From contig JAMWFC010000040.1 of the NCBI GenBank assembly GCA_027475525.1, positions 186,001-250,000 of the forward strand: a stretch of 64,000 nucleotides of DNA, written 5' to 3'. Positions within the stretch are counted from its first letter, which is position 1; each line of letters begins with the position of its first letter. Shown one piece after another: positions 15,270-63,009 of this stretch. The DNA is from Macrolepiota albuminosa (lineage: Eukaryota; Basidiomycota; Agaricomycetes; Agaricales; Agaricaceae). The notes below the pieces were generated by a model, which saw nothing but the letters and a program-made list of their open reading frames with translations, was not told the origin of the DNA and ran no database searches. The translations under genes were made by a program, and so were the position numbers.

Positions 15270-17559
15270 TCAGTCTTCGCCATCGGAGAGCGGCAGGGAA
15301 TCGTCGAAAGGCAAGAGGTCGCCAACCTGAACATGGTTGAGGGCCTGCCACTCTAGCGCCTCATTACAGTCGGCTTGGTACTCTTGCAGCACATCCATAC
15401 TACGGGTCAAATTGGAGTATCGAAGTCGTGAAGCCATGATTTGTTGCCGGACTCGTTCACGCTTGCGACCCAATACTGCACGCATGCTTGCCGCATGTAC
15501 CGCCATCCGCTCTATAACCTGGGGTGGGTACAAGGCGACCACAGGATAGACTAGGTCTTCCCCCAGCCACTCATAGGAGTCGCCAGCAACTCTTGGCTGA
15601 GACTGGGGAGTCCATGATGAGGGGCCACTCGAGCTGGTCCAGTGCTGCATGGCTAAGTCGCCCTCACTTACCCAGGGGGCGGCAGGCTCTACCGGCGGCA
15701 ACTCCTGGGACTCGCCAGGTATCTCCCGCAATGTCTCATCTACGTCGCCCTCGGCATCCTTGTCCCCCTGTTCCTTCCCTGGCGACCCCTGGCCTGTCCC
15801 TTCCGACTTCTCAACATCCTCAGGCACCCCCATCTCAACGTCCTCCACTGCTGACCCCGTTTGAGCGCCAACGTTGGACGGGCCAGCAGACGTGCCATCC
15901 GCCAAGTCAATTGGGGACAGCAATTTACTGGGACTGGCCTCTCTGCTAGGAGGGGGCAGGCGACTCGCGGCAAGGGCCTGTTCCAACTCTTTCATCTCCC
16001 TGTCCTCAGCACTTGGAGAGGGGGATGGCGACTCGATACAGACGCGTTTGGCCTTCGCCTTACCTTTGCTGGGGGAAGAGACCTTGCGTTTTTCTAGGCG
16101 CTCGCCAGCGCCATACTTGCTGACAGATTCAGAATCCTCTCCTTGACGTGTCGGTAGCGCCAAGGAGGACTTGCTAACACTGGCTGCCCTCCCGGCAGCA
16201 GCCTCCTGCCTCTGCTTCTCTACAAACTCCCTCACGCGCTTGACCAAAACTGCTCGGGAGAAAGTCCTCTCGACAACGGAGTCTGGCGCCCCTCCCTGCT
16301 CGCAACTCTTGGTGCTATCGATGGTACAGGCACGCTTGAGAGTGCCGCATCGGTAGCAAGGTTGGGCGCCAGTGGGGAACCAACAACTCTCGGGATCGTT
16401 GTCAGCCCAACATTTGTCGCACTAAGATCAGTTAAGTGGAAGAAAAGTCATAAAAGAATAGTTGCTTACCGCTCCCCACGAGTCTTTGAACTCTTGGCGG
16501 ATCGCCTTGTCCACTGTGCGCTTGTTCTTCATTTCTGGGAGTTCCACTCCCGCTTCGATACCCTCATCCAAAGTTACCTCCTCCCGTCGCGGCAAGAGCA
16601 ACGCCTTCAGTTCTTTGTCATCGAAGGACGACTGGGTGGGAATCTGTCTCATGGTCAGCAGAGGCACAAGCACAGTTGGAGACCACTTACCGCATACTGA
16701 GGGGCCTTTCCTTTGCGAGACTAAAAAGAATTGATTAGCGACGCCCAACAGCGGTAAGAAAGGATGAGGCTTACCTTCTTTTTCAAAGTCTTGCCCGGCT
16801 TGACTGGGGAACCCATTCTGCTTGCCGGTGGTGCTGGGTTCTGGGCACTACCGGCGCGGGAACCTTTGCTAGACCCGGCGATTGTGGATTCCTGCCTTTT
16901 CGTGACAGGCACCTGCTCCTTGCCGACGACCTCCTCCTCACCAGTAGCTTCGCGTCCCTCCTCCGCCTGGATTCTTTCCTTGGCATCCCGTGACGCCTCG
17001 GCAAGCGCCTCCTCACAAATTGCTGCCATCTCTGCATCGACCTGCAAATTGGCGAGAGGCGCCAGTACCTCTTGCTTACTGTGAGGAGATAGGTCAGACC
17101 ACAGCTAAGTTAGAAATTACAGTTAGAGATACTCACTCAGGCGCTGGCGCGCTTACCGTCATTGGCAAGGCGCCAGAGAGGATGTCCTCCAGTTCGTCCT
17201 CAATGGTCGGGACAGGAGAAGGCGCCTAGGGAATCAGTTAGCTAGCGGCACGGCAAGCAATCATAAAAACTTACAAAGCGAGAGAAGGGACCCAGCCACT
17301 CAGATCCCAGATTATTGACGTACCGCGCCCGGCACCACTCCCGCACTTCAATCTCCTTGTCCCAGCCTACGCCAAGGACACGAACTTTGTACCAGCGCTC
17401 CAGTAACTTCATTACCGCGATCACCAAGTTTGAAGGCGCCTCCGCGCCCACACCCTCGATGCGCTTGATAAAGTTATTGGCCTTAGCGATGTAGGCGGAA
17501 GCGGCGTCTTGAGCCTTGCGAGACGGCACGGGAGGCGGAGTTGGAATACGGAAGGACAT
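15270..17559 (-). CDS. antisense spliced gene of element A with a Cys6 cluster
   Basis: Antisense to gag-pol, starting 170 bp inside the 3-prime LTR. Six exons fit without any stop: 17559-17275, 17225-17157, 17104-16775, 16720-16691, 16643-16470 and 16421-15270. The introns are 47-54 nt, all phase 0, with GTAAG donors and mostly YAG acceptors. The predicted protein is 679 residues. Cysteines at 297, 300, 309, 318, 321 and 328 (C-x2-C-x8-C-x8-C-x2-C-x6-C) resemble a fungal Zn2Cys6 DNA-binding cluster. A Lys-rich segment (KGKAKAKRVC) and Ser-Pro repeats suggest nuclear location, and the C-terminus is helical (about residues 590-640). Function is unknown; a regulator of the element or of host loci is only a guess. 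The same architecture occurs antisense in family C. Splicing is inferred from frame continuity, not from transcripts. Confidence 0.7.
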
Positions 17560-17711
17560 ATTTTTATTTTTGAGCGCCAGGAAAAGATGGGGAGAGGAAA
17601 CAAAGTCCAAACTCACGCGCCAGGACTATAAACAAAATCTCAAGAACGCACGGACCACCTGTCACAAAAGCGGTAACGGTAACCATATTTGGTGACTGAG
17701 GACAGTCAATT

Positions 17712-17728
17712 TTTCAGTTGGGGGGAGA
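17712..17728 (+). promoter_or_regulatory. element A polypurine tract
   Basis: The sequence ttcagttggggggaga ends directly at the 3-prime LTR start. A G/A-rich tract here primes plus-strand DNA synthesis in LTR retrotransposons. Confidence 0.8.
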
Positions 17729-18666
17729 TGATAGGACCCCATACAGGAGCAGCACATCAACGGCAGGCAACGGCAGGCTCGGCATCGGCTCCGGAAATCT
17801 TGCCGCACTTGTTCCGAACTTAGCGCACATGTTCTACCTATTTTGAGCCATTCCCAACGGCCGGACACGGCAAGAAGCAGATACGATCAATGATAGCGCC
17901 GACGGCAGCAGGAATGACAACTGACAGATGGCATCAGTCACTGATGACAGCGTGTGGCAAGAAGATTGATGATCTATCAAAAACTGACGGACAGCTTGGC
18001 GTTTGACCTTGGCATCTGACACCACTTAGCGCTTCGATTCGGCACATGACATCGCTAAGCACTTTGGACAGACAGAAGGGTGATGGGCTGATGGTTTAGC
18101 ACCGCGATCTGCCGCCTGGTGGCGTTAAGGGTCTTGAATGGACGGCAGGGATCTGAAACTGTTGGAGCTACCCCTTATAAAATTTTCTAGTTTACCGCTC
18201 TTTAGTCACTGGCGATGGTGAACTCATTGTAGTATAAAAGCACTTACCGACTTGTACATAGGATCATCAGAGAACAATAGACCAGAGTTCACCACTCCCC
18301 TTTCTTCAGTCTCCCTTACGCTACGGTTGGCAACGTCAAACTCATCGGCAGTTGCAGACGCTCGCCAACACTCGACATACTTGCGCCTTGCAACTACGGC
18401 AGGCATTATTGACGCTTAGACTTCGCTAAGCTTATCGTGCTCTTGCCGCTTACCTTTGCCGTATTCACTTACCACTTCTTCCTAGGCGCTTTACCTTAGC
18501 GCTTTACACTTGCCGACCCCGTTACCGACTTTTCCCCATTTTCACAGGCGCCTTCTCTGGGACCTGCCCAGGACTCCTCACATCACTTATAGCGCGCCCA
18601 ACGCAAACTCTTGGTACGGTAACACTATTGCTACATTTGTTACTGACCAAACTTTGGGCGTCATCA
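17729..18666 (+). repeat. element A 3-prime LTR
   Basis: A 938-bp copy of the 5-prime LTR with TATAAAA at 18233-18239. It ends CATCA, followed by CCAC, the 4-bp duplication of the element B target. Read on the minus strand, this LTR lies just upstream of the antisense gene and would have to supply its promoter. Confidence 0.9.
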
Positions 18667-19409
18667 CCACTACTCTGTAGGCCTGGTCCAGAATAGTTGT
18701 GATCAACAACTTTTCCCAGGGAATGCAGATGACTTTGGACCTAGTGGGTCTGATAAGATAGACAAGTTGCTGCTCTATCTTAAAGCGCAGATGCGCTTGG
18801 ATATTGTGTATAATCTCTATGAAGAGATTGTTATCCTTGTATCCTTGCTAGATACATATGCAAAATTGCACATTGTCTAGATTGATTGGCATGGGATGAT
18901 GGTCATGCAAGTCCAATGCCTGCTGGAGAGTCATCTCCACACCACTAGGGCGCACCTTTTGCCTCATTTCTTTGCCTGGCTGAGGGGTCTCATGATCTAC
19001 CAGCACTTGCGCCTCAATATTGCAAGCTTCTTGCTGTTCTTGCAGTTGCTTGCTGTGATGTAATTCATGCGCACGTAGTTTAACCATATGTTCCTTGATT
19101 TCATGGAACCTATGCAGGGGCAAGTCCTCACCCTCCGGGTCAATGCGTTTGTCTACCTGAACATAGTCATGCATATCATAGACATCATCTTGAGTATTAC
19201 TCTCAAAATATCAAGACAGGCAGTCCGCTACCTTGTTCAATTCACTTTTTACATAGGTGATGTTGAACTGATATCGCGACATATAGTCAATCTAGCAATG
19301 TGGTTGCAGTGATAGATGCACTTGGGTATTAAAAACTTGAGTGCCTTGTGATCCGTGATGATATGAATCTTATACCCTATCAGTTTATCCTCCCACTTTA
19401 GAAGGGCTT
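18667..19409 (-). pseudogene. element B RNase H C-terminus and linker to integrase
   Basis: Reading minus from 19409: KWEDKLIGYKIHIITDHKAL, the RNase H motif with its last Asp, continues to FNITYVKSELNKVADCLS, a standard RNase H end. A long acidic linker follows (DDVYDMHDYVQVDKRIDPEG to about 18848). Next come GYKDNNLF and CIPWEKLLITTILDQAYRVV, which leads directly into the zinc-binding region at 7779. There are a few in-frame stops. The joins at 19409 (to 30934) and 18667 (to 7779) show that C1 and A inserted into this element. Confidence 0.85.
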
Positions 19410-20756: not shown

Positions 20757-20769
20757 TAATATCAAGACT
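20757..20769 (+). promoter_or_regulatory. element C1 self-complementary primer binding site
   Basis: The bases immediately after the LTR are taatatcaagact, with no TGG as tRNA priming would require. They are the reverse complement, with one mismatch, of the LTR segment near 19756-19768. In C2 the match is perfect over 13 nt. This is the arrangement used by Tf1-type elements that prime with their own RNA 5-prime end. Confidence 0.75.
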
Positions 20770-20786
20770 CCCTCCTTACACCGTTC

Positions 20787-29253: not shown

Positions 29254-30060
29254 CTAGAGCTGGGGCCCTGAACTACCCTCACCCTCCCCTCCCCTTGGCC
29301 AGCCCCGAAAACCCTCCCCCATCCCCTCTGGGCCATGCTCCCACCACACTTCCTCAGCCAACAGATCCCAGGATGGGAGGGGCTCGCCTTCGTCCAGCAC
29401 ACGCTCAAACCAGAATCCCGGGGCGGGCACGTTCCTCTGCCGATGTGCGGCCACCAGCCGCCCCAAGAGATCGAGGCCGCGCTCCACCCCAGGGGTCGTC
29501 ACTTCCAGGCGTTGCCCCTCCCGCAACGCAGCAAGTGCCGTGGCAGCTGCTGATACACCAGGCATGTGGAGGCAAGCCCTGGGGCCTCACCAGCGCCCCC
29601 TCAAAGGCCTCCTGCGTCGCGCTGGCCCACGCAACGTGCTGGGTCTCTGGGACCTCAGAAATGGCCCCCACCACCATCCCAGAGCGATGGAAACAAGAGG
29701 CAACCAGTCTAGGACAAGGAGGGGGAGGGGGACGGGAGGACGCACAGTCATCCACGCAAAAGTGGGCGCGGGACGACTGGGGCCTGACCCCGAAGGACCC
29801 CCGGGACCTGCATCAGGAACAGGCTCTGGGAGCCGGCTGGGACCCGCCTCTGGGGCAGTAATGTTGTGTTGTTCTGAAAAGGAAAGGTCAGTAATGACAA
29901 GTGAGCAGCGTGGGAAACACTCACGTTGTTGCACAAGCGCCACCACGCACTCCTGGTCCAGGCGGGCTCGATACTGTGCGTCCCGGGCTTCCCAGGCCAT
30001 GAGGAGCACGACTTCGTTAGTTTGCGGGGGCGTTGGGGAATGTGTCGGCGTACGCGACAT
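29254..30060 (-). pseudogene. antisense gene of C1, cysteine region deleted
   Basis: The start (MSRTPTHSPTPPQTNEV) lies 128 bp from the 3-prime LTR. Exon 1 is 30060-29925, intron 1 is 29924-29874 (51 nt, GTGAGT donor, TTACTGAC branch-like, TTTCAG acceptor), and exon 2 starts at 29873. Near 29555 exon 2 jumps from LPPHAWCIS directly to the C-terminal part (ATALAALREGQRLEVTTP through 29254). The six-Cys cluster, basic region and coiled coil seen in C3 have thus been deleted. The exon 1 and intron layout is conserved in all three C copies. Confidence 0.65.
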
Positions 30061-44690: not shown

Positions 44691-46496
44691 AGCGACCTGA
44701 CACCCGACACCCCCGGGACGACTGCCGTGCCCCCCACGCCCGCCCGAGACCGCAAGGCCCCCAATCGACCCCCAAACATTCCTCGGAACAAGTACAAAGG
44801 GCCGAACTACCCCTGCCGGTCTCAGACACACGTCACCCCCGCTCCGACCAATGACTCCGTGACCCCGATCGACCCAAGCACACTCGACATTAGGATCATT
44901 GGGGCCGCCTCCTTTGCCCGCCTCATGAGGGATGGAACTCCCACGTTTCAGCTACACACCTCACCCTCTCTCCCGGAAGAACATCTACGAGGGGACGCTA
45001 TTCCCCCGGAAAAGAAAACCGAGGAGCAAGTCCTCCGAGAAGTAGTTCCCCCGGAGTATCACGAGTTCGCTGACGTATTCTCCAAAGGAGACGCCAAGGA
45101 GATCCCCCCTCACCGCCCCTATGATCACACCATTGACCTCGAGGAAGGAGCCACCCCCCCTTTCGGCAAGGTCTACAACATGTCGGAGGTCGAACTCCGG
45201 GCTCTCAAGGACTACCTCGACGAAATGCTCGGTAAGGGATTCATCCGACCCTCCGCCTCCGCCGCCGGAGCCCCGGTTCTATTCGCCAAGAAGAAGGACG
45301 GCTCACTCCGACTCTGTGTCGACTACCGGGGACTCAATAAGATCACCAAGAAGAACCACTACCTGCTCCCGCTCATTGGCGATCTGGTCAATCGACTCCG
45401 CAGTGCCAAGGTTTACACGAAGATTGACCTCTGCTCCGGTTACAACAACGTCTGCATCACCCCGGAACACGAGTGGAAAACCGCGTTCCGCACGCGGTAT
45501 GGTCTGTTTGAGTACCTTGTGATGCCTTTCGGAATGACTAACTCCCCCACCACGTTCCAATACTTCATGAACGACATCTTCCACGACATGAGCGATGTCT
45601 TCGTGATTGTCTACCTGGACGACATCCTCATTTACTCCAACTCACCGGAGGACCACCAGAAGCATGTCTGGCAAGTCCTCGAACGCCTCCAGGAGCACAA
45701 CCTCCACGCCAAGCCTGAGAAGTGTTCATTCCATACGGAAGAGGTTGAGTATCTTGGCGTCATCGTATCCCCAAACGGCGTTCGCATGGACCCCCACAAG
45801 GTCGAGGCCATCGTCAACTGGCCGCAGCCCCGGAACGTCAAGGAAGTACAATCTTTCTTGGGTTTCGCTAACTTCTACCGGAGGTTCATAGATAACTACT
45901 CCGGTATCACGAAACTCCTCAACCGGCTCACGCGCAAGGACGTCGCCTGGAACTGGGACAGTAAGTGCCAGAGTGTCTTTAACCTGCTCAAGGAGGCTTT
46001 CACGACCGCCCCCGTACTCCGGCACTACGACCCGACCCTCCTGATTATCCTGGAATGCGACGCCTCTGACTACGCCATTGCCAGGATTCTCTCGCAAATG
46101 GGACCTGATGGCAGGGAGCCCCGGCCAGTTGCCTTCTACACCTGGTCCATGATCGACGCCGAGCTCAACTACGACATCTATGACAAGGAGCTCCTCGCCA
46201 TCGTCGAAGCCTTCAAACAATGGCAAGCCTACCTCGAGGGAGCCCGGCACCGGATTCAGGTCTACTCGGATCACAACAACCTGCGCAAGACTTCCTCCGC
46301 CAACTGCTCCCAGGACAGGAGAGCCTCACCCTCGTCCAGGACTCTTTCAAACCAGGAACCGGGGGTGGGCACGTTCCTCCGCCACCACCCGCCCCACCCC
46401 GGGGGTCGTCACCTCAGGGCGCTGCCCCTCCTGCAGCGCCACGAGTGCTGCAGCTGCCCCGTCCAAGAGCAAGCGGTGCTCTCGGGCCCAGCCTAG
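44601..46496 (+). CDS. element C2 reverse transcriptase and partial RNase H
   Basis: 631 codons open. Motifs: [61 protein letters not shown] with intact YLDD, and RNase H LECDASDYAIARILSQ, YDIYDKELLAIVEAF and YSDHNNL. After that the frame runs into antisense-gene sequence (RKTSSANCSQDRRASPSS) until the stop at 46496, so the last 70 residues are a fusion created by the deletion. Confidence 0.8.
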   Translation: MRHKPRHRLEDAHHDLPGTPSTPVHLQALGSDLTPDTPGTTAVPPTPARDRKAPNRPPNIPRNKYKGPNYPCRSQTHVTPAPTNDSVTPIDPSTLDIRIIGAASFARLMRDGTPTFQLHTSPSLPEEHLRGDAIPPEKKTEEQVLREVVPPEYHEFADVFSKGDAKEIPPHRPYDHTIDLEEGATPPFGKVYNMSEVELRALKDYLDEMLGKGFIRPSASAAGAPVLFAKKKDGSLRLCVDYRGLNKITKKNHYLLPLIGDLVNRLRSAKVYTKIDLCSGYNNVCITPEHEWKTAFRTRYGLFEYLVMPFGMTNSPTTFQYFMNDIFHDMSDVFVIVYLDDILIYSNSPEDHQKHVWQVLERLQEHNLHAKPEKCSFHTEEVEYLGVIVSPNGVRMDPHKVEAIVNWPQPRNVKEVQSFLGFANFYRRFIDNYSGITKLLNRLTRKDVAWNWDSKCQSVFNLLKEAFTTAPVLRHYDPTLLIILECDASDYAIARILSQMGPDGREPRPVAFYTWSMIDAELNYDIYDKELLAIVEAFKQWQAYLEGARHRIQVYSDHNNLRKTSSANCSQDRRASPSSRTLSNQEPGVGTFLRHHPPHPGGRHLRALPLLQRHECCSCPVQEQAVLSGPA

Positions 46497-47871
46497 GAAT
46501 GTCAGTAGGAGACCAAGTCTGAGGAGGAGGAAACCCACTTAATGAGGCCATGCGGGCCACCACCACATCCTGGCACAGAGCTTCCGCCAACCCCTCGCTC
46601 CCCGGGAACCCCACTCCTTGCCCAAGCCTCGCCCTCAGAGCCTCCAACTCAGCTTCCACTTCCCCCCGGGCGACTCTGGCCTCCTCCAGGTCCCGGATCA
46701 TCACCTCCTGGCCCTCCTCCAGACCCCGCCCGGCCGCCGCCTCCTCCCTCGCCCTGCTCCTGCTCCTGCAGGGCCCCGACTTCACCAGCTTGGAGTCCCC
46801 TGAACAGGGGAGAGAATGTTGCTGGGGATAGGCGCGGGGGGGAGACCGGAGATGGGGTCTCCAGGGGCAAGCGCGCCCTCTTGGAGGGCCCCGGGGAAGA
46901 GCTAGGCTATGCCCGCTGTTTTCCCTTGTCTGGGCGCCCCTCAAGTTGCTCCCGCTCTGGGGCGCCGGACCGGGTCACCCGGCGCGTGATCAAGACCACG
47001 GGCCGGCCCCAGCCGCCCACCCAGACAAACCCCCGCCCTCCCGCCCCACCCCCAGGGGCCTCCCCCGGCGCCTCCTCCTGAACCGCCACCGCCCCCGTGA
47101 CCCAATCCCTCTCCTCCACCCCCATCCTCCGGGTGATCCCTCTCAACGGCCAACCCTGCTCCTGCGAAACGCAATATGCCCTCCAGAGGGCCGAAACGGA
47201 ACATCGCTCATGATTGAGGCGACAGGCCTCGCACACGGAAGTGTCGTGCCGGGACGAGGTGGACGGGACCTCGAACAAGCACATCACCGAGCGACGCGCG
47301 CAGTGGAGACACTAGAAAGGATTAGCCATGGGACCAGAGGTACGAAGCTACTTACCGGCCCGTTGCTGATACACTAGGCATGGGGAGGCAGGCCCCAGGG
47401 CCTCACCAGCGCCCCCTCGAAGGCCTCCTGCGTCGCGCTGGCCCACTCAACGCGCTGGGCCTCCGGGACCTCAGAAATGGCCCCCACCGCCATCTCAGAG
47501 CGACGGAAACGAGGGGCGACCAGTCTAGGGCGAGGAGGGGGAGGGGGACGGGGGGGATGCACGGTCATCCGCACAAAAGTGGGCACGGGACGACTGGCAC
47601 CTGAAGGACCCCCGGGACCTGCACCAGGGACAGGCTCCGGGAGCTGGCTGGGACCCGCCTCTGGGGCAGTAATGATGTGTTGTTCTGAAAAGGGAAGGTC
47701 AGTAACGACAAATGGGCGGCGCGGGAAGCACTCACGTTGTTGCGCGAGAGCCGCCACGCGCTCCCGGTCCAGGCACGCCTGGTACCACGCGTTCCAGGCC
47801 TCCCAGGCCATGAGGGGCACGACCTCATTAGTTTGGGGGGGTGTCGGGGAATGGGTTGGCGTACGCGACAT
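46345..47871 (-). pseudogene. antisense gene of C2, stops in the cysteine region
   Basis: Start at 47871 (MSRTPTHSPTPPQTNEVVPL), 125 bp from the purine tract. Exon 1 is 47871-47736; intron 1 (47735-47685) is 51 nt as in C1 and C3. Intron 2 has a GTAAGT donor near 47360 and a TTCTAG acceptor, 44 nt, with its interior diverged from C3. Downstream exon sequence keeps CLHCARRSVMC, CEACRLNHERC, the Ser-Pro/basic region and a coiled coil. It has frame changes between 46945 and 46540 and ends near 46345. The conserved splice signals around a divergent interior support real introns. Confidence 0.65.
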
Positions 47872-47996: not shown

Positions 47997-49300
47997 TTGT
48001 TTTGGCACTTATGCCTCATCCTGAACATTTAGACAATTCTGTGCCCGACACTATACATATACTTTACTATTGTTGTGTATTTGATGAGATATAAGCAGCC
48101 CAGCTTTGCTTCCAGTACGTCTCAATGCGACTTGCGACTCTGCCTCACCACAACCCCTTTCACATTGTAGAATTGCTCCAGCTCTCAACTCTGTCAAGCC
48201 TGATGGACAAGCGATTAAGAGATTCCATGTAACTATCTGATTAATTTAGTAAGTATCTTAACGAGTTAACTTATAACAAATGAACAAGATAGTTCCAACT
48301 AGGGCCTCTATGGTTTCCGGATTTTTTGGGTAGGGGTATTGCTTGGAAAGCAGCAAGGTAGTCGTATAATCAACAACCCACTCAGGAGGGCTGGTGTGTG
48401 TTGCAAAATAGATAAGCTGATCAAAAGGCTGAGAGATCGCAAGGTCTATTCAGACACGATCATGGTAGAGTGACAACTTGGCTAAAAGGGGCACGATTAC
48501 ACCAAGATATTTTGCATAAATTGGACGAGTGACAAGAGTGTATAATTTTGGTGGGGCAAGTAGATGAGCAACGTGACCGGAGATGCTGTTTGCATCAAAG
48601 ATAAGGCTCTGTGTTCCATGAGTCACGCATTTTGTGGACATGAAAAAGATATTGTACTGTTTCAATGTTATTAGATTGAATGTATGCCTGGAGGACGCTC
48701 GATATAATGTCTGCACCCCAATATGCAGCAAAATTGTTTTGCAGGTCAGGGTGATTGATGATCCATCTTCTGTGTGCGAGTTGAGTTGGAAGTTACTAAG
48801 AACGCCGCAGGCAATGCAGGATTTGTAGTATAGGTGCTAGAGAAGTCGGAAGAGGTGCTGTCGATGACGTTGACATCTGCCTTGGATTTGAAGTGGGAGT
48901 GGTGGACAAACGGCCACCAGACAGAGTCGAGAATGCATCGGAGCATGGAATTGAGCTTGGCAAGGCAAGATGTGTGGGCTTGATGGATATGTTTTACTGA
49001 GAATTTTCAGATGGGTTGGATAAAAGAGGAGGTGATTTTTCAAAAAAGACAAATCAAACGTTGCAGTCTGCAAAGTTAACTTCACTGAGATAGTGAAAGG
49101 ATCTGATCAGTTTCTGGCTCAGATTCAGGAAGAGAGCCTGAGTTCCTTTCACATGAAAGGGCAAGAATCTAATACTAGACTTTGAAGATTAGCTTAGAAG
49201 TGGAACAAATCAACACAATTTATCTTGAATTCATAAAAGTATAAAATTCAAATAGTTTACATTGAGCAATATTTAAAGAAAAAAAAAACTAGGAAAAAGC
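47997..49300. other. unassigned region right of C2
   Basis: Mixed AT-rich sequence. Minus frames 49085-48837, 48946-48746 and 48731-48450 may be exons of one gene: the last ends LITLKQYNIFFMSTKCVTHG to VIVPLLAKLSLYHDRV. No family was recognised and no clear splice joins were established. Confidence 0.25.
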
Positions 49301-49513: not shown

Positions 49514-49667
49514 TGAAACTTTGCAGAGTAAGTGCTCTAAAAAAATTGAACTATAACCAATGCACTGCTTTGCTTCTTGTGAAAGATGTCTGAAACTTTG
49601 CAGAGTAAGTGCTCTAAAAAAATTGAACTATAACCAATGCACTGCTTTGCTTCTTGTGAAAGATGTC
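49514..49667. repeat. 77-bp tandem duplication
   Basis: Identical units start at 49514 and 49591, with five extra matching bases at the junction. It lies in the 3-prime coding part of the TET/JBP-like gene. Confidence 0.9.
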
Positions 49668-52340
49668 TGAAAAGTGGCTATCCAGATAACATAGTGCAAA
49701 GTGAACAGTCTTGTGGCTTTCAAGATTAAAGCCTAACAAACTCAGTCCAGAGTAAGCTCCAAGCTGAGGATGATCCCAAATCCAATCAGCCATCTCTTTA
49801 ATAGTAGGATTTGCAATAACTTTGGCAATAGCTAATGCATTGACAGTTTGCATTAGAGTCAGCCCACTCTTAAATCCGTTTACTTCTAAACTTTGGATAA
49901 AATGCATTGTCTCACTCTATGATTTATGTGGACCAGAATAAGTATCAGGATTTTGATTCAGTATTTCATCCAAATGTTCTCTCTATCCAGTCTGTATTTT
50001 ATGAGTCCAGTAAGATGACAATTTAGAATGCAAAGTAGAGCGTGATAAATTTTTTTCTGACAATAAAGTTCTTTGATTTGATGAAATAGTTGGAAACAAT
50101 GCTAATAAATTGCTTGCTGTTCCATAAATAGTGCTATTAGATAGCTGAAGAATTCCAGGAATTGATTTGTCAGGTTTTTCATCAAATACAGTTTTAGGAG
50201 ATCCATGATACTCTAATAAAACTTGGTTGTGCTCAAGTGCTGACTGGAAAATGCCAATACAATCAGAAAGTGTTGTGCAGTAGAAAGACTTTATAAAATT
50301 CAAAAAATCTGAAGTTTTGTTGCCTTGTCCTGTTCCACTCCAAACCATCATATTTGACAATCCATAGACTGATGTAAGTAAATGTCCTGGCATATGTGTT
50401 TTTAACAATTCAGCTCCTTGATTAAATTCACGAATAGGATCAAATTGATCAGTATCAGAAGATATATATTCTTTTTCTGTACCAGGATGCAAACCATCCA
50501 AAAGATAACAAAGAGGTTGATGTACCCATCCAAGATTTTGACAACGATTTATAGCTTTTCTGAGAATAATACCAGGAATAGCAAGAGATATAGGTGTATC
50601 TGGCAATTTAAAAATTGTCTTATATGTAAGAGGAACATGTTCTTTTGACGTAGTTTTTCTGGAAGGGAAAGATTGTTTTGATCAAATTTTTGGTGGCTGA
50701 AGACTTTGAGCTGTCTCTACAATTTTTGAAAGTCTTCCTCCTATTTTAAACTCATACATACAGACCTCAATAAAGTCAGCAATACTATCAGTAATGACTG
50801 GTATTTCATTAGAACAATTGCGAAAAGCATTATGGAGAGGATCAAGATATTTTTCAGGCTGAGTTTTGATGCGATGTAGTAAAGTAGATTCAGTAGTTAC
50901 ATTATCAGGAAAGAGTGTTTTGGGCTTGTTTAAAATTACTGAAATTCCTTTTGAAGCACAGATACTTTCAGTACCAATATCTTCAATCAAGGCTTGTAAT
51001 ATAATACCTCTGAGCTCACAATTGCAAAGAAGATTTTGCTGATCTTTTTTAGAAAGTTTTCCTGTGCAACCAGCTTGAGCACTGAGATATGGCATAGTTA
51101 ATTGTTCAATCAATATGCTTTTCAAATAATCATTCAAAGTCTTATATAGATGTTGAGGACCAGGCTTAATAACTTTATCTCAAGTAAGCAAAATGTTTTC
51201 TGGAACTTTATTAGATCCATGCAGTGAAGTCTTTGGCTTCACACCAAAAAGATCCCAAGGAATTGAGATAGATGATGATTTGGATACATTTTCTTTTACA
51301 GACTTTTTAGTACTAAGATAATTTTGTCTGTAATCAAAAAGAAAATTTTAAACAGCCAGTACTAAAGCACCATATGAGGGATAATTCTTTTTTAAATAAG
51401 CTGCTGCTTTAAATTGATGAACTCCCAATAGAATATTGAGCATTTTAGGCAGAGAAGTTGAAATAAAGTCATTTATAATCAAAAGATTTCTGCATTCTTG
51501 CCACTGAATAGATGCTTGCAAAATTTTAGTTACAAGATCACTTTCTTCTATTTTTTGCAATCCTTGAGCTGCTTTAGTAACACAAAGAATGAGTTTTTCC
51601 ATGGTCTGGAATTGTGAAGGAATATCATTATCATCATCATCTGCTAATTCACTGTCATTCAAAGGGCTAACTTGTAAAAATCCTGTATATGATTTCTGAT
51701 CCATATTATGATCATGAAAAATTTGAGGCCAATAAAGAATATTTTTATCCAACTTGTAAAAAGCAGCCTTTTTTTCATATGTTTTGAATGATTGAATCAA
51801 ATTATCATATTCATCTTAGAAAAATTCAGGATCAAGCCATGATAGAGCTTTTTTTATCCTGTCTGATAAAAGCTTTGTAGCACGATGAATTCGTCTTTTT
51901 CTCAAAGATGGATTGTTAGCAATGTAATTGTCCAGTAATTCAGATGCACCAAGACTATAGATATATTAATCAAATGAATATATTCTTTATTTATCATACA
52001 TACCGAAGATCACTTTCTTTTATATGTTAATTATATCGCAAAGTATAACCCACAAATTTTACATCAAGCCAAAGAACATCTTGAACTAGAGTCTGGATAT
52101 TATATAATATTAGCTTTTTAAGCTATATATAAGTTACTAATAGTAAAAGCCTTACATGGTCCACAATACATTCAACTTCATAAGATCCGTATTCTTTATT
52201 TCCAACTAATATTGTCTAAATTTCAAAATAAGTTCTATCATTTAAAATATTAAATATAATCATACTAACATTTCCAATTAAATCTTTTGTATAAGATTGA
52301 GATACATCACTTGTTTCTTGATTAGCAACTTTTTGTCGTT

Positions 52341-52494
52341 TTCTTGATAAAGTTGCAGCTTCTTGCATAGTTTCTGAATCTTCAGATTCAACAGAACTAT
52401 CAAGATTATCATTATCTTTCTTGATAAAGTTGCAGCTTCTTGCATAGTTTCTGAATCTTCAGATTCAACAGAACTATCAAGATTATCATTATCG
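52341..52494. repeat. 77-bp tandem duplication
   Basis: Exactly 77 matching positions, period 77 (52340-52416 against 52417-52493). It interrupts the low-complexity segment of the TET/JBP-like gene and shifts its frame. Confidence 0.9.
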
Positions 52495-52987
52495 TGGCTA
52501 ATTGGAGGTGACCTGGCCTGCTTGTGCTTAAGTAAGGTTACAGGCTTAGTTATTGGAAGTAGTTGTGATTGTTTTTTTACATGTGCATGCTTTAGCTTTT
52601 CCTGCATTTGTTTATAGGTCGTTTTTTTTAAATTAAGATCTGTTGCAGAATGTAATTTCAACAAATAAGAATAATAGCCTCTATATAGCAAGATTTTTTC
52701 TTGGTCTGCTTTGTTCAGAATATCCAATTCTGGAAGTTGTAATGGAACATTTTCTCTATTTTCATTTTTTATTGTCATTTTTGAGAGTAATGTAGATGCA
52801 GTTTCGTCCATTGAAATGTTTAAAGATGAAAGAGCATTTAGAAAAGCATAGGTTACATCTGTAGCCATTCTTGAACTACCTTTTTGTAATGAACCTAAAA
52901 CATGTGGTGTTCTAGCAAAAGTTAAAGATGTAGGATTAGAACGTGAAAGTGATCCTCGATTACCAAATAAATTAGCTTTCATCAAAG

Positions 52988-54220
52988 CTAGCCCGCAATC
53001 CCTACTAACAGCTGCAGCTGGAAAATAAACTCAGCTGCAACTTTTTGCCAATACTGATTGAACTTGTGCAATTCTGGATCATTGAAGAGTATTTCATGAA
53101 TAGAGACTTGGCAGCCACCATGAAGATCTCTAGCATTAAAGAAGAGGAAAACAATAGAACAAGCTGATTGTCTGATATAAAGACCATAGCGTCCTAAAAC
53201 AAAACTGCCTTCATGGGCACCAGGTGGTATTTTGACTATAAGTATAAACATTGTAAGATATGCCATAGCGTCACCATCAGTATGCAGAGTACCCTGGATT
53301 TTTCCTATTTCTTTAACAAGATCACCACCATTAAAACCTGATGAAACATTCAACTGCACTTCTATCCCTCCTTGTTTTAATCCTGCATATGAAAAGCAGT
53401 TATTATCTTGTAGATGAAATTGAGTAATGTTCCATTCAAATTTAGACATAGAAAGTGGTGCAAGAATGAAGTATATTTCACTGAGAAGATGTAAGAATTT
53501 TTGAATTCTGTCTTTGGCATAGTCATAAGCAATTTGTAAAGCTGGAACAAGAATTCCACTTCCATGCCCTTCTTCCAGCGTTGATGCAAGACTATAAGAG
53601 CCATCAAAATGATACATTTGACCTTCAGCCTGGTGTTTTGAGCGCATATTTCTGCGCAAAAATGAAAGAGCAAAAATTGGTTCAAAACCATCATCAGAAT
53701 TAAAAGTAGAAGGACGGCATCCAAAAACAGACAATTGCAAATTCTTACAAAGCTCAACGAGTTTGGGATACTTTTGAGGATACATATTTTTAACAGACTG
53801 GAGAGTATGAAGACATGCACAAGTCTGCAATCCTTCAATATCACCTTGGATATTCAAAACATATGGGATTCCAGGTATCATGGTCACCATTCCTTTTGGC
53901 TGACCATCAATGTATATTTTCTTTTCAATATTCCAAGTAGCATCAACATAGTCAGGAAATATCAGCCTAGACTGATATTCAGTATCTTTCATCTTTGCAG
54001 ATGCATTGGCTATCATACTGGCAACAAAAATGGCCTGAGATAAATATCTTAAATCTTTTTCAAGACACCATTCAGGAGATTGTGGATAGGTTAAAAAATT
54101 AGATACAGGCTCATTATTGACCTCTGGAATAGCAAAAAGTCCAGGTAAAACTCCAAGAATTTTATATGGAGGTATATCACTTGGAGAATAATAAAAATTA
54201 GAATCTTGAGGATCTGGCAT
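52988..54220 (-). CDS. TET/JBP-like 2-oxoglutarate/Fe(II) dioxygenase domain
   Basis: 410 codons open from the internal ATG; the exon probably starts further upstream near 54260. The metal-binding signature is TLHTDGDAM (His313-x-Asp315) and, about 50 residues later, ARDLHGG (His367). Between them lies IPPGAHEGSFVLGRYGLYIR, matching the pattern LP-x-G-x3-G-x-F-x-L-x3-G-x-Y that I know from fungal TET/JBP proteins. Members oxidise 5-methylcytosine in DNA using Fe(II) and 2-oxoglutarate. In basidiomycetes this family is expanded and often linked to KDZ transposons (Iyer and colleagues). The N-terminal 250 residues are family-specific. Read-through into the next segment at 52988 needs a frame change or a small intron. 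Confidence 0.65.
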   Translation of the reverse strand: MPDPQDSNFYYSPSDIPPYKILGVLPGLFAIPEVNNEPVSNFLTYPQSPEWCLEKDLRYLSQAIFVASMIANASAKMKDTEYQSRLIFPDYVDATWNIEKKIYIDGQPKGMVTMIPGIPYVLNIQGDIEGLQTCACLHTLQSVKNMYPQKYPKLVELCKNLQLSVFGCRPSTFNSDDGFEPIFALSFLRRNMRSKHQAEGQMYHFDGSYSLASTLEEGHGSGILVPALQIAYDYAKDRIQKFLHLLSEIYFILAPLSMSKFEWNITQFHLQDNNCFSYAGLKQGGIEVQLNVSSGFNGGDLVKEIGKIQGTLHTDGDAMAYLTMFILIVKIPPGAHEGSFVLGRYGLYIRQSACSIVFLFFNARDLHGGCQVSIHEILFNDPELHKFNQYWQKVAAEFIFQLQLLVGIAG

Positions 54221-54313
54221 GATTGGTTCAATGGTATGAACCTGATGTCTATATAATAAAACTATATAAAAATTGATTATATCAACAGAGAGTAAAAAAT
54301 AAATGTTAAATAC

Positions 54314-54995
54314 CAGATGATTCTTCAGCCAAATTAACTTCTTCTATACAAGATCAAGGTTAGATAGTAGCAAGTAAAGAATAAATATAACATACCATTG
54401 TTTCTTCATTATAAACAACTCTTTCTATAAACAATACAAATTAGATAGTAGCAAATATAAAGTAGATACAATATACCAAGTGTTCTTTTTGCAGAACCAA
54501 CTCTTTCTATACAAGATAAAAGTTGGATAATAACAAGTAAAGAATAAGTATAACGTACCCATTGTTTTCTTATTATAATCACTTTTTTCTATACAAGATC
54601 AAGGTTAGATTGTAGCAAGTAAAAAGTAGACATAACATACCAAATGTTCTCTCTTCAGAATCAATTTCTTCAATACAAAATCAAGGTTAGATAGTGGCAA
54701 GTAAGAATTATATACAATATACCAAAAGACCTCTCATGGAAACTGGGCCCTTTTGTATAAAATCAAAGTTAGATAGTAGCAAAAAAGTAGATATAATGTA
54801 CCAATAGACCTTTCAGAGAACCTGACTCCTTCTATACAAGATCAAGGTTAGATAATGGCAAGTAAGAATTATATATGATATACCAATAGACTCTTCAGAA
54901 AAGCTGGCTCTCTCTATATAAGATCAAGGTTAGATGGTGGCAAGTAAGCAGCATGGATAACATACTTGAAGATCCAGTATGTAAACGAGCTTGCT
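54314..54995 (-). repeat. tandem array of nine 30-nt micro-exons with introns
   Basis: An approximately 82-bp unit repeats nine times (exon starts on plus at 54314, 54396, 54477, 54559, 54641, 54723, 54802, 54884, 54966). On the minus strand each unit is an intron (GTAT donor, CTAACCTTGAT-like branch, TATAG acceptor, about 50-53 nt) followed by a 30-nt exon. Exon 54396-54424 is 29 nt, and two others have altered acceptors (54668 and 54753). Since 30 is divisible by three, exons can be skipped without shifting frame. Two frames are open through the array. The phase-1 frame joins neatly to the dioxygenase exon (through TATATAG at about 54265) and encodes repeats such as FSERSIE; the phase-0 frame gives Leu-rich repeats such as KELVLQKEHL. 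Confidence 0.7.
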
Positions 54996-55199
54996 CTATA
55001 TAAAACTAACCTTAGATGACAACAAATAATATAGGAAATAAAAATACGGTTGGTTTGAGTGTCTAAAAAACAAACTTGAACAAAAGACTTTGATGCATGA
55101 AATGTAGTACATACTTTGCATCGTTTGTTTCGAGGATTGTTGCATGTTACTTTTGCAATGACAGTGAGAGGAAGAAGGAAGAGGACAAAGATTGACGAT

Positions 55200-56290: not shown

Positions 56291-56299
56291 GTCCTCCAA

Positions 56300-58440: not shown

Positions 58441-58546
58441 CTACATCTATCATACTGTGGCCTGCACGAGGTGTATTTTTTTTTTAAAAAAAACGACGGT
58501 AATTAATACAAATAGGAAGTAAGCGGCAGGAAGGGAGGGGCGGGTA

Positions 58547-59421
58547 TCATGGAAGAGGCACAACGAAACATAACGAGAATACAAATACATAACAAGAGGG
58601 AAATTTAAAATAGTCTTCCATAGTTTGGGTGGGGAAATGGCCACATTTACTCTTCCTCCTTGAGCCTTGCCCCATTGCTGGACAAGTGACTACTATTCGC
58701 CTCGGCATCATCAACTGCCTCAAGCAGCTCCTGTTTGGCATCACCACTTCCATCCAATGTCTATTAGTAGCTCTTGCACTCGCAGCTTCTTCGCTTCCAA
58801 GGGCTACGAGCCCCTCAAACGTGGTGTTGACCTCGTCAGTATCTTTGTCGGCATCTCCATCCGTATCCACATCCATGACGGAGCCCAGTAACTGGGACAA
58901 ATGCTTCGTGTTATGCTTGAGCAGGGAGGTCTTCTTGAACTTGCTCAACATGCCTACGGGAGTTGTGTGGCCAATGGTGGTGGGTGGGGCGGACACTGTT
59001 GTGGGAGTGTGAGTGGCTGGCTGTGCCGCCACGAGGCAGGTCATCTTTGTCATGGAAGGTGGCAATGGAGGGACCAGGACTGCATGGGGGGACAAGATGC
59101 ACCATTGGGTTGGAGAGGCGACGGGTGGTGCAAGTTGTTGCAGGATGAAGAGATGCTCAAATGACTGGAGATTGTGGGGAGGGTGTCTGCGCAATGGACG
59201 GTTGGATGGGTCTGAGGATGGGGGAGATGGGATATAGATGAGCTGATCCTGTTGCTGCTGGTTTTTGAGGGCTTCATAAGTGCAACCTGGGGTGGGGATG
59301 AGGGCTGGATGATGAGGGCTGGGCTATCGGCGACTGGACATTGCACGGTCAGAGTAGAATGTGTGGACAGATAGGAGGGAAAGAGTATCTTGTAAATCTT
59401 CCTCAATGTCAAACCAGACAA
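58547..59421 (-). CDS. hypothetical Ser/Thr/Pro-rich protein
   Basis: Two overlapping minus frames (59421-59050 and 59194-58547, 215 codons) read SSSISHLPHPQTHPTVHCAD, then MLSKFKKTSLLKHNTKHLSQ, MDVDTDGDADKDTDEVNTTF and KSKCGHFPTQTMEDYFKF. Biased composition with His/Ser/Pro-rich and acidic parts. A frame shift between the two suggests an intron or decay. Not recognised. Confidence 0.35.
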
Positions 59422-59568
59422 AACTGGATAGTATAAACGTGGCTACTCACTTGTTTTCATTAATACAGCATTTAATTCTTCATTCGACATCCTGGGCTGC
59501 ATGACTACTGTGCGTTGATTTCAGTACTGGCACTCTGATTGTGAGTGCAAAGAGAGCTTGTGGCTGTG

Positions 59569-59621
59569 CTTGATCACTTTTAACGAGGGCTCCTTGAGAG
59601 CCCTCGTCAAAAGTGATCAAG
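59569..59621. repeat. 53-bp near-perfect hairpin
   Basis: Inverted arms of 24 bases (cttgatcacttttaacgagg and onward, with its complement) around the 5-base loop cttga, with one mismatch. No coding context was seen. It could be a tiny foldback element or a cruciform-forming site. Confidence 0.8.
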
Positions 59622-59730
59622 TTCCCCACACTCATAAATAAATAGATATTTTTATTGCATATTTAGCCCTGATTAGTTTCCCCATGCTCATAAATAAATA
59701 GATATTTTTATTGCATATTTTTGCAAGGAT
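59622..59730. repeat. direct repeat, period about 56 bp
   Basis: ctcataaataaatagatatt and about 20 following bases occur at 59631 and again at 59687. AT-rich and probably local duplication. Confidence 0.8.
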
Positions 59731-59782
59731 AAGTGTGCTGAAGAGTGCAGAGAAATGGGGGGATGGAACCTTGGAATTTTGG

Positions 59783-60198
59783 TCAGAAAGGGAGACAAAA
59801 TTGTATTCCTCCTAATACAACAAAGGTAACTGAATGAGGAGCAGGGAATCTAGGAAAATAATACACCGTCGCTGATTTCAAGAATCTCTTGAACTTCCGT
59901 TTAAGCTCTATTAATATTGGCCAAAGTCGGTACTTGAACAGTGTAATAATTTGCTGATTGTTCTCTGCCTGCACTGCCAGCTCCGTCGCAGTCAGCTTAC
60001 AAGGTTCTAGGGGTGGTGCAATCGGCAGGTCCTCAAGCACCCTCAGCTTCCTCTTGACACTGTTGGCAAACTGATTTGGAGGTCGTCAAATATCCTGGAC
60101 AAGAGGCTCAAAGAATTCAGTACGTTGCAATGCAGACGGAGAGGTAAGCTCGACATGATTGTCTTTTGTAAGGCAGAACCATGCTCTGACATCTGGTG
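59783..60198 (-). pseudogene. Yta7/ATAD2-like gene fragment, cut by C3
   Basis: Reading minus from 60198: PDVRAWFCLTKDNHVELTSP, QRTEFFEPLVQDI-stop-RPPNQFANSVKRKLRVLEDL and PIAPPLEPCKLTATELAVQA, then QQIITLFKYRLWPILIELKR. The order FFEPL..DI.RPPNQF, PPLEP..L, LK.RL.PIL.ELK.KF resembles the segment between the AAA+ part and the bromodomain of Yta7/ATAD2 chromatin ATPases. The fragment is cut at 60198 by the LTR of C3. Downstream coding after KFKRFLKSATVYYFP ends at 59783. One TGA occurs in DI-stop-RPP. The rest of the gene would lie beyond C3. Confidence 0.45.
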
Positions 60199-60602
60199 TG
60201 TCAGGTTCCGCTGAATCGGGGGCTTTCCGGGAAAGCGACGCCCTTACGATGCGGACTTGATCTACGGATACTCGGGTGTCTGGAACTCCGGGGCTAGGAC
60301 TCCGGGGTTCAAGACGAGGACAGGAGTAATCCCGGGAGAGGGGACTAGAGTCCGGGGGTTTTGGATGAGAGTAGCTGAGGGTTAGAGGGGGTCGAGTCGT
60401 GAACCGGAGGTTCTAAGACGAGACCAAGTTAGTAATTTAAGAGTCGCGAAGTGCGTACCAAACTTATAGCACGCGAATACTAAGGCGTGCCAGTCGAAGC
60501 GTACCAAACGAGGCGTACCAGTCAAACAGAGGGCACGCAATATCCAAGTAACAGTTATGCAATATCAAGACTAGCGAATACAGCGGAGAACTACACTATA
60601 AG

Positions 60603-60756
60603 TACTACGGATCGTGTCTCGGGATTCCGGGATGTCTGGGATGAGTTCCGGGGGTCATTGAGTAGCGGTCCGGGACTGCTACTACGGATCGTGTCTCGGG
60701 ATTCCGGGATGTCTGGGATGGGTTCCGGGGGTCATTGAGTAGCGGTCCGGGACTGC
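60603..60756. repeat. 77-bp tandem duplication in C3 LTR
   Basis: Units at 60603 and 60680, 76 of 77 positions equal (one a/g difference at 60644 versus 60721). Confidence 0.9.
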
Positions 60757-60806
60757 GTACCGGGATCGCGCGTGGGGGACGCGCGATCAATTGGCGCGGG
60801 GGGGGT

Positions 60807-60960
60807 CGTGATGCGTGGGGCGTGATGCGTGATGGCTTGATGCGAGCCGCGTGATCCGATCGTTGATGGCGGTTGATCCCGGGCGTGATGCGTGGGGCGT
60901 GATGCGTGATGGCTTGATGCGAGCCGCGTGATCCGATCGTTGATGGCGGTTGATCCCGGG
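60807..60960. repeat. second 77-bp tandem duplication in C3 LTR
   Basis: Units at 60807 and 60884, exactly 77 matching positions with no extra match on either side. Confidence 0.9.
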
Positions 60961-61276
60961 TCCGTGATGCAGGGGTCCCGGGGGGGCTGGCTGATGGTGA
61001 TCGGTGGCGGCTGATGGCGGTCCTGATGCGCGTGATGGCGGTGTCGGCGGTCGTGATGGCGGGGCGTGTCCTGTGGGGTCGGAGGGAGGGTCCCGGATGG
61101 TGTTCCGGGGGTGTCCCGGGGTGGGCCCGGAGGGGAGGGGTCGTGACATCACCCCCCCTTCAGCGCCGAGACCCTCCGAGGCGCGCGTAGCCGGTGGTCC
61201 GGACCGGGGTTCAACCGTGGGATCCGGCACCTGACTTGCCACGTATCGAAAAAAAATTTTACCGCTAAGTCCAACC

Positions 61277-63009
61277 ATGTCGCGTACGCCGACACATTCC
61301 CCGACACCTCCGCAAACCAACGAGGTCGCGCCCCTTATGGCCTGGGAGGCCCGGGATGCGCGGTACCGAGCCCGCCTGGACCGGGAGCGCGTGGCGGCGC
61401 TCGTGCAACAACGTGAGTGCCGTCGCGATGGTTCGCTTACCGCGGCTGACTTTTCCCCTTCAGAACAAAGATCTTCCCCCGCTCCGGAGGCGGGTCCCAG
61501 CCGACTCCCGGAGCCTGTCCCTGGTGCAGGTCCCGGGGGTCCTTCGGGTGCCAGTCGTCCCGCGCCCACTTTTGCGCGGATGACCGTGCGTCCCCCCCGT
61601 CCCCCTCCCCCTCCTCGTCCTAGACTGGTCGCCCCTCGCTTCCGTCGCTCCGGGATGGCGGTGGGGGCCATTTCCGAGGTCCCGGAGGCCCAGCGCGTTG
61701 AGTGGGCCAACGCGACGCAGGAGGCCTTCGAGGGGGCGCTGGTGAGGCCCCGGGGCTTGCCCCCCCATGCCTGGTGTGTCAGCAACGGGCCGGTAAGTGG
61801 TTTCATACCTCTGGTTTCGAGGCTGACCCGGGTGTCCAGTGCCTCCACTGTGCGCGCCGCTCAGTGCTGTGCTCGTTTGAGGTCCCGTCCTCCTCGTCCC
61901 GACGCGACACTGCCGTGTGCGAGGCGTGCCGCGATAACCATGAGCGGTGCTCCGTCTCGGCTCTCTGGAGGGCGTATTGCGTGTCGCGGGAGCAGGGATG
62001 GCCGCTGGGGGGGATTACCCGGAGGATGGGGGTTGAGGAGCGCGATTGGGTGGCGGAGCCGGCGGGGGAGGCGGTGGAGCCGGTGGGGGAGGGGCCTGCA
62101 GCGCCCGCGGAGGTGCCCAGTGGGGGGTCGGGGAGTCGGGGGGTCGTCCGGGTGGGGGGCCGGGGCCGGCCCGTGGTGTTGATCACGCGCCGGGCCCCTC
62201 GGTCCGTCGCCCGGGGGCAGGGAGGGCGCCTGGACAAGGGGAAGCGGCGGGCGTCGCCCAGTCCATCCCCGGGGCCTTCCAAGAGGGCGCGCTTGCCCTC
62301 GGAGACCCCGTCTCCGGTTTCGCCCCCGCGCTTGTCCCCAGCGACATTCTCCCCTCTGTCGGGGCGGCCCCTGGGGGTGGATGTGAGGGCCCTTCAAGAG
62401 CGCCCGGGGGACTCGGAGGAGGGTGGGGAGGCAACCGTCGCGCGAGGGGAGCTGGAGGCGGGTCGGGAGGCGCTGCGACAGTTGGAGGAGGCCCGGGTCG
62501 CTAGGGGGGAGGTGGAGGCGGAGCTGGAGGCGTTGAGGGCGCGGTTTGGGCAGGGAGTGGGGGTCCCGGAGAGGGCCCCCTCGGGACAGGAGTTGGTGGA
62601 GGGCCTGCGCCGCGACGTGGTGATCGCGCGCATGGCATCCCTGAGTAGGTTTCTTTGTTGCCTGCACCTTCGTTCGCTAACGTCTCCAGGCTGGGCCCGG
62701 GAGCACCGTCTGCTCCTGGACGGGGTTGCCGCGGCGCTTGCCGCGCTGCAGGAGGGGCAGCACGCGGAGATGACGACCCCCGGGGTGGAGCGCGGCCTCG
62801 ACCTCTTGGGGCGGTTGGTGGTCGCCCACCGCCGGAGGAATGTGCCCGCCCCGGGCTCCTGGTTCGAGCGCGTGTTGGACGAGGGTGAGCCCCTTCCGAC
62901 TTGGGAGATGTTGGCCGAGGAGGTGTGCGGGGGTCACGGTCCGGAGGGGGTGGGGGGAGAGTTCCGGGGCTGGCCGAGGGGAGGGGGTAGTGAGGGGGGC
63001 TCCGGTTAG
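61277..63009 (+). CDS. intact antisense spliced gene of family C with a Cys6 cluster
   Basis: Antisense to C3 pol; ATG lies 129 bp from the 3-prime LTR. Exons: 61277-61412, 61464-61792, 61840-62644, 62690-63009. Introns are 51, 47 and 45 nt with GTGAGT/GTAAGT/GTAGGT donors, CTGAC or CTAAC branch sites and CAG acceptors. The product is 529 residues with no stop. After a Pro-rich N-terminus comes Cys156-x2-Cys-x6-Cys-x15-Cys182-x2-Cys-x6-Cys192, close to the fungal Zn2Cys6 pattern with a longer loop. Then follow SPSPSPGPSKRARLPS (basic, NLS-like), a heptad-like helix (ARGELEAGREALRQLEEARV) and a helical C-terminus (WAREHRLLLDGVAAALAALQ). Function unknown. A nuclear DNA-binding regulator encoded by the element is an inference. 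Confidence 0.75.

Follow-up and report, generated by a model that had tools for sequence, protein, structure and literature searches.

Two families of Ty3/gypsy retrotransposons in the basidiomycete Macrolepiota albuminosa carry, in the interval from pol to the 3′ long terminal repeat (LTR), a spliced gene antisense to gag-pol, and in both families this gene is a divergent cassette whose alleles are swapped between otherwise near-uniform elements, with a genealogy discordant with that of pol. We found them in a stretch of 64,000 nucleotides (the window; positions 186001-250000 of contig JAMWFC010000040.1) from a 100 Mb assembly of 129 contigs, where one family is represented by element A and the other by elements C1, C2 and C3. 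Antisense open reading frames (ORFs) of this kind are already known as such; what is new is the antisense gene as a divergent allele cassette in fungal gypsy elements. The only intact antisense genes within the window are those of A and C3:

15270..17559, minus strand: antisense gene of element A, six exons, 677 aa, between the pol end at 14838 and the 3′ LTR start at 17729
16326..16421, minus strand: six-Cys cluster of the A protein, residues 295-326, starting exactly at the start of exon 6
14839..15269, no strand: spacer separating pol and the antisense gene of A, which converge on it
17560..17728, minus strand: A leader, from the antisense ATG to the 3′ LTR, including a polypurine tract at ~17720-17728 (by eye)
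61277..63009, plus strand: antisense gene of C3, four exons, 529 aa; the C3 element itself is on the minus strand
61840..61950, plus strand: six-Cys cluster of the C protein, residues 156-192, starting exactly at the start of exon 3

A spliced gene at this position in A and C3 had been proposed from the sequence alone, and both models are indeed open, with exons at 17559-17275, 17225-17137, 17078-16775, 16720-16691, 16643-16470 and 16421-15270 in A (minus strand) and at 61277-61412, 61464-61792, 61840-62644 and 62690-63009 in C3 (plus strand). All introns are of the GT-AG type (47-58 bp in A, 45-51 bp in C). The length of 529 residues given for C3 was correct, that of 679 for A should read 677, and C3 can also be read through as two exons (561 aa). 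The intron preceding the cluster ends, in both genes, exactly at the first Cys codon and in phase 0; this sequence-only reading had an intron end exactly at a Cys codon of the cluster. The start codon, placed there at 125-170 bp from the LTR in four copies, lies at 169 bp in A, 128 bp in C3 and 127 bp in C1 (ATG at 30060, LTR from 30188); the fourth copy, C2, has no 3′ LTR match in the 2.5 kb past its end, and its likeness to C3 reaches no farther than 47997, a distance of 126 bp from the start codon.

Beyond the window we fetched 30 loci per family, 60 in total with the window's own A and C3 among them; being the best-scoring copies, they are biased toward intact ones. The gene is antisense to the pol end in 60/60 loci; its other flank shows an LTR match in 59/60, the exception being L019. 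Each family was aligned in 31 rows, the 30 loci with the window copy entered twice. The donor GT of A introns 1-5 is retained in 30, 30, 28, 31 and 31 rows and the acceptor AG in 30, 31, 28 (three more read CAAG), 31 and 31; for the three C introns the donors are kept in 30, 30 and 31 rows and the acceptors in all 31. Mean pairwise substitution amounts to 0.28-0.30 in introns 1, 3 and 4 of A against 0.13-0.18 in its exons; the corresponding values for C are 0.24-0.33 (introns) and 0.15-0.20 (exons). No stop interrupts the gene model in 23 of the 30 A loci and in 16 of the 30 from family C.

The ratio of nonsynonymous to synonymous substitution (dN/dS; NG86, median of the pairs with dS > 0.05, 432 in A and 445 in C) is 0.130 for the whole coding sequence of A (exons 1-5 0.124, exon 6 0.135) and 0.247 for C (exon 3 alone 0.303). 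Both medians are far from 1, the value that the earlier reading had associated with a frame that is not conserved. The five other frames in each family served as controls, and four of them gave 1.5-1.9 for A exon 6 and 1.15-1.36 for C exon 3. The exceptional fifth, on the opposite strand, had 0.251 in A and 0.551 in C, still almost double the coding-frame ratio, and carries stops in 31/31 and 30/31 rows, respectively. Although loci chosen for their score are biased to intact copies, such ratios still show selection during the replicating history of the elements. The A and C antisense genes are thus real protein-coding spliced genes under purifying selection.

With the last frame of A (14167-14838) as a pol-end marker, 149 other A pol ends were found among the matches listed, 93-96% identical to that of the window. 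The antisense gene stands behind at least 105 of the 150 best A pol ends, 102 of them from the listed matches and three (L074, L076 and L077) read directly; a same-strand arrangement occurs nowhere among the listed matches. Six of the A pol ends were fetched. Additional versions of the gene, with exon 1 and an open exon 6, stand behind four of them (L072, L073, L074 and L076); L077 has a frame-broken gene and L075 only the gene tail, beside other sequence. The proposal that the elements encode a protein of their own antisense to gag-pol is strongly supported by the gene's position antisense to pol in all 60 loci, the dN/dS values, the splice sites and the pol-end counts. The elements agree with the aORF-3R class (antisense additional-ORF LTR retrotransposons) in the position of the gene at the A and C loci, in its presence in most copies of family A (at least 105/150) and in a coding sequence under selection (medians 0.130 and 0.247). 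The assembly contains near-identical duplicated stretches (L004/L005 at 99.3%; paired matches ~281 kb apart on contig C126), perhaps two haplotypes or one large duplication, so that copy counts may be inflated.

The gene and its surroundings have different histories. In 43 linked A elements besides the window's, pol is 94-96% identical and exon 6 is identical at 95, 89, 86, 73-78 or 55-60%; gag parts show 96-98% amino acid identity in 108 other copies among the matches listed. For a closer comparison we took two clades, both defined on the antisense gene: clade 1 (the window, L010, L014, L015 and L018) and clade 2 (11 loci), with the near-identical L011-L013 dropped and L016, L017, L019, L020, L022, L027, L029, L031, L032, L034 and L036 excluded. 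The median dS of pol end, exon 6 and exons 1-5 is 0.295, 0.114 and 0.187 within clade 1, 0.255, 0.381 and 0.295 within clade 2, and 0.309, 0.931 and 1.205 between the clades. The gene is therefore younger than pol within clade 1 and older than pol between the clades, and pol dS and gene dS correlate only weakly (Spearman 0.30-0.32). Fixed differences between the clades number 267 within the gene (112/723, 61/350 and 94/1146) against 0/169 in the leader, 0/428 in the spacer, 0/672 in pol and 5/268 in the inner LTR, the LTR being compared between alleles over its inner 372 bp or less. Since the gene itself served to define the clades, its side of the contrast is partly built in, and it is the zeros in leader, spacer and pol that constitute the actual finding. 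Among 1000 permutations the observed ratio was reached 25 times for the spacer, 13 times for pol and 15 times for the inner LTR, indicating weak linkage, and 497 times for the leader, indicating none. Exchange has also occurred inside the gene, as L016 and L017 are close to the window in exon 6 (dS 0.27-0.32) but distant in exons 1-5 (dS 1.24-1.29), and the alignments of L076 suggest a mosaic.

Family C presents the same contrast with less clean cassette borders. Between the four groups with at least three loci, cut on gene distance, 163-378 of 1,561-1,590 exon positions are fixed differences, as compared with 1-16/711 in pol and 0-12 of 124-126 in the leader. Loci L066-L068 differ from C3 by a dS of 0.08-0.13 in pol and 0.54 in the gene; for L040-L042 the gene dS is ~0.01 with a pol dS of 0.06-0.10.

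Fungal Zn2Cys6 clusters usually follow the spacing C-x2-C-x6-C-x5-12-C-x2-C-x6-8-C. The A cluster reads C-x2-C-x8-C-x8-C-x2-C-x6-C and that of C reads C-x2-C-x6-C-x15-C-x2-C-x6-C, so that both genes resemble the fungal Zn(2)-Cys(6) binuclear cluster family (PF00172) in having six Cys in two C-x2-C units, a basic segment and a coiled coil, but depart from its pattern in the x8 of the first half (A) and the 15-residue loop (C); the other spacings agree. Five of the cluster Cys are present in 30/30 A-type sequences (six Termitomyces proteins, the 23 loci without stops and a second entry of the window copy) and the sixth in 29/30; in the C-type set (16 loci, the window copy again and four database proteins) the figures are 21/21 and 20/21. 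A seventh Cys (AWC-x5-C; C3 residue 150) is seen in 20/21 C-type sequences, the remaining one having a gap. A cluster had been attributed to the family C copies generally; C3 has it and the C2 pseudogene retains its Cys, but in C1 it is deleted. A bipartite motif resembling a nuclear localization signal (NLS) occurs in 31/34 A-type and 32/45 C-type proteins longer than 330 aa (26/29 and 28/41 when identical sequences are counted once) compared with 165/680 and 177/900 composition shuffles, and it follows the cluster in 26/29 distinct A-type proteins and in 22/27 distinct C-type proteins in which the cluster pattern was found (of 41). It is on this motif that the nuclear location proposed earlier rests.

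A search of the predicted proteins against proteomes, suggested in the earlier reading, returned six Termitomyces proteins for A and 49 relatives for the C profile, the named ones being hypothetical Termitomyces proteins and one match, P0007, carrying no name; this holds within the candidates sharing most words, which were those scored. On these matches the host is probably an agaric close to Termitomyces. AlphaFold models of two Termitomyces relatives contain long helices, at residues 256-395 of the C-type P0008 (12/14 ten-residue blocks over 261-400 with a predicted local distance difference test score, pLDDT, of 75-97) and at residues 599-661 of the A-type P0001 (blocks at 66-87 for 601-660). 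The structure prediction thus bears out the helical part of the protein but yields no confident Cys cluster. Sequence and profile searches of PDB gave nothing for A and, for C, five weak coiled-coil or unrelated matches with E of at least 0.37. Pfam detected no known domain in either antisense protein beyond a sub-threshold Zn_clus match for C, and membership of PF00172 was rejected, the gathering score not being reached. Descent of the A and C proteins from one ancestor found no support, at an hhalign probability of 1.1% and 2.2%, also with wider alignments. At this 1-2% the profile comparison does not support one kind of gene for the two families, even though layout and the phase-0 intron right before the first cluster Cys agree; the likeness could equally reflect common descent beyond detection or convergence.

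As to what the gene does, we give an even chance to an element-encoded nuclear zinc/coiled-coil regulator that acts on its own element and is kept as exchangeable alleles. Antisense transcription toward pol would start, we infer, from a promoter in the leader or the 3′ LTR; the leader, the least divergent non-coding stretch between the A clades, is a candidate promoter region. After splicing and translation, the product would combine a zinc-cluster-like Cys6 unit, a basic segment resembling a bipartite NLS and helical or coiled-coil parts, and it would be imported into the nucleus and act there as an oligomeric regulator of LTR transcription or silencing. Its zinc binding, nuclear location and regulatory role, and the cause of its diversity, are likewise what we infer. 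Several old, divergent alleles would be exchanged among homogeneous elements, template switching within the conserved flanks being the simplest route. As the genomic RNA is the sense strand, in which the antisense introns are reversed and unspliced, these introns survive retrotransposition. The alleles serve perhaps type-specific self-control or counter-defence. By analogy with phage repressors and Ty1 copy-number control, each allele may repress or protect elements of its own type and so define 'immunity groups', with rare alleles escaping, diversity being maintained and template switching shuffling the cassettes in parallel in two gypsy lineages; this extension is possible but doubtful.

Several observations weigh against a zinc-cluster regulator of the LTR. 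The Zn_clus match of the C protein scores 11.8 bits with a cut-off of 21 (two-exon model of 561 aa) and the A protein has none; among relatives weak matches occur in 5/10 C-type proteins (best E 0.07) and 0/12 A-type proteins. The cluster itself is modelled at low confidence (pLDDT ~31-34 in P0001, 50-58 in P0008), and the term 'Zn2Cys6 regulator' is accordingly plausible only. Pairs of CGG-N-CCG are not clearly enriched in the LTRs of A (4 vs 1.8±1.4; 5′ LTR 3 vs 1.9±1.3) or of C (14 vs 9.3±2.9). Type-specific LTR sites should co-vary with the allele, yet in A only five of 268 inner LTR positions and none in the leader are fixed differences between the clades; among the C groups the leader differs at 12/126 positions in one pair and at 0-8 in the other five. 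That leader and inner LTR of A hardly co-vary with the allele argues against simple allele-specific operators there, and specificity in A may instead lie in protein-protein contacts, in sites elsewhere in the LTR or in a host target. Finally, in L070 (C107:1829200-1832700), a chromodomain-like pol end of a 1308-aa gypsy lineage as judged by eye, a comparable antisense zinc gene was not seen by eye among frames of at least 70 aa, and such a gene may be dispensable for gypsy retrotransposition in general. Repeated 8-mers in the C LTR exceed shuffles (6, shuffles giving at most 4), but tandem repeats lie in that LTR.

The scant co-variation with leader and inner LTR in A is what would be expected if the target were a host factor, and divergent, exchangeable alleles in two element families together with the NLS-like motif would suit a protein that blocks host silencing (RNA interference, heterochromatin or methylation) and diversifies under host pressure. 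No host target is known for such a protein and the low dN/dS values (0.13 and 0.25) give no sign of positive selection at the level of whole-gene medians, which include no site test; we consider counter-defence unlikely, if worth keeping in mind. A less probable role lies in the particle or preintegration complex, where the protein would be an accessory factor for nuclear import or target choice and not a transcriptional regulator. Nuclear import of the complex has been raised for plant antisense ORFs (PMC7264820), and the NLS-like segment, the helices and the presence of the gene behind at least 105/150 best A pol ends would all agree with it. A partner of Gag or integrase would not be expected to split into old alleles, however, when the listed pol and gag sequences are near-uniform.

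Returning to the cassette itself, a local mutation hotspot without allele exchange could explain why introns are the most diverged part between the clades (0.29-0.52, window vs clade 2) and why a difference of 0.21 is seen in intron 1 among members of clade 1 itself. A hotspot cannot, however, make the gene younger than pol in one comparison and older in another; within clade 1 exon 6 is less diverged than pol (dS 0.114 vs 0.295) and introns 2-5 are only 0.02-0.05 from the window, which makes this explanation very improbable. We attach hardly any credence to a frame without function as a protein, be it that antisense transcription itself matters or that a captured fragment of a host transcription factor is drifting. 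The genome does offer Zn2Cys6 genes for capture (21 matches), but the coding evidence (dN/dS 0.13/0.25, the off-frame controls and the kept splice sites) contradicts it, as do ~100 or more matched copies per family and the absence of a Pfam-level relation to host Zn_clus; the flanks of 6/21 genomic Zn_clus matches, inspected by eye, were without a pol-like frame. The self-regulator remains our preferred reading. Allele diversity combined with purifying selection suggests that self-regulation or host conflict is the driving force, and with many natural alleles per family, two fungal families and sharp cassette borders in A, function becomes testable by comparing alleles. A gene on the strand opposite the genomic RNA also offers a retroelement a route to keep introns.

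HBZ of HTLV-1 has a spliced form and, unlike the A and C proteins, is a basic leucine zipper protein of a retrovirus. It is described as a retroviral antisense gene with a nuclear product (PMC11963269), and therein lies the likeness. Nearer at hand, three papers (PMC7264820, PMC8365987, PMC4227169) refer to brtn (Zhao et al. 2011, Virology), carried by Boty-like gypsy elements of Botrytis cinerea, as an additional antisense gene, and one of them includes Boty in its list of elements whose antisense ORFs lie between pol and the 3′ LTR (PMC7264820). The supposition that nothing of the kind had been described in fungi is therefore mistaken. Boty shares with A and C the additional antisense gene in a fungal gypsy element but belongs to an ascomycete, and the descriptions cited, from which the likeness is drawn, do not mention a Cys6 cluster, introns or allele cassettes. 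Plant antisense additional ORFs include Grande gene23, RIRE2, Retand TRP28 and PvRetro13 (PMC7264820, PMC11963269); for gene23 a nuclear product and its own promoter are reported (PMC7264820, PMC11963269) and the TRP28 proteins are proposed DNA binders (PMC11963269). They differ in their domains, with no zinc cluster mentioned and allelic diversity not discussed in these accounts. Ty1 is analogous in its self-encoded, subfamily-dependent copy-number control by a Gag-derived restriction factor, with gag having moved by horizontal transfer and recombination (PMC7055915), but this is a sense-strand gag product acting on virus-like particles. One review calls the function of LTR-retrotransposon antisense genes unknown (PMC7264820). 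Our searches of open-licence PMC papers turned up neither a Cys6 antisense gene reported from basidiomycete gypsy elements nor allele cassettes of antisense genes.

The remaining parts of the elements in the window are as follows:

7780..18666, plus strand: element A, Ty3/gypsy, with the 5′ LTR at 7780-8735 and the 3′ LTR at 17729-18666
8765..10732, plus strand: gag-like open frame of A with a CCHC-like motif (by eye), no Pfam match
10733..11428, plus strand: aspartyl protease frame of A (Pfam gag-asp_proteas, E 1.6e-8)
11356..14838, plus strand: reverse transcriptase, RNase H and integrase of A in several frames (Pfam RT_RNaseH, Integrase_H2C2)
29293..30060, minus strand: C1 antisense gene remnant, in which an internal deletion takes out residues ~158-443 including the Cys cluster
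46286..47871, minus strand: C2 antisense pseudogene that retains the cluster Cys but has in-frame stops and a broken frame
60199..61148, minus strand: C3 3′ LTR, outer edge approximate
63289..64000, minus strand: C3 pol end with SH3-like domain and chromodomain (Pfam SH3_Tf2-1 7.8e-19, Chromo 1.2e-14)

The two LTRs of A are 95.9% identical, both begin with TGATAGG and end with CATCA, and CCAC is a possible 4-bp target duplication. Pfam found protease, RNase H and integrase domains in A and detected no chromodomain; the reverse transcriptase frame (11356-12726) and the last frame (14167-14838) had no Pfam match. Since C3 does have a chromodomain, we take A and C for different gypsy lineages, on domain content and not on a tree. 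Within the C3 LTR, tandem repeats of ~78 bp occupy 60603-60970, and C2 ends in a polypurine-like stretch (47997-48060) as a truncated element. Elsewhere in the window, an AT-rich stretch at 52278-54343 holds long open frames of 250 and 451 aa on the minus strand, of unassigned kind. Among the other loci fetched, L069 holds, as judged by eye, a non-LTR element, and L071 (C74:594500-598000, plus strand, 54-1916) appears to carry a decayed C-type antisense gene in another gypsy lineage with a pol of 1386 aa, judged by eye from WC-x5-GP followed by a possible donor and from a C-terminal stretch resembling LLLD...HRRRN.

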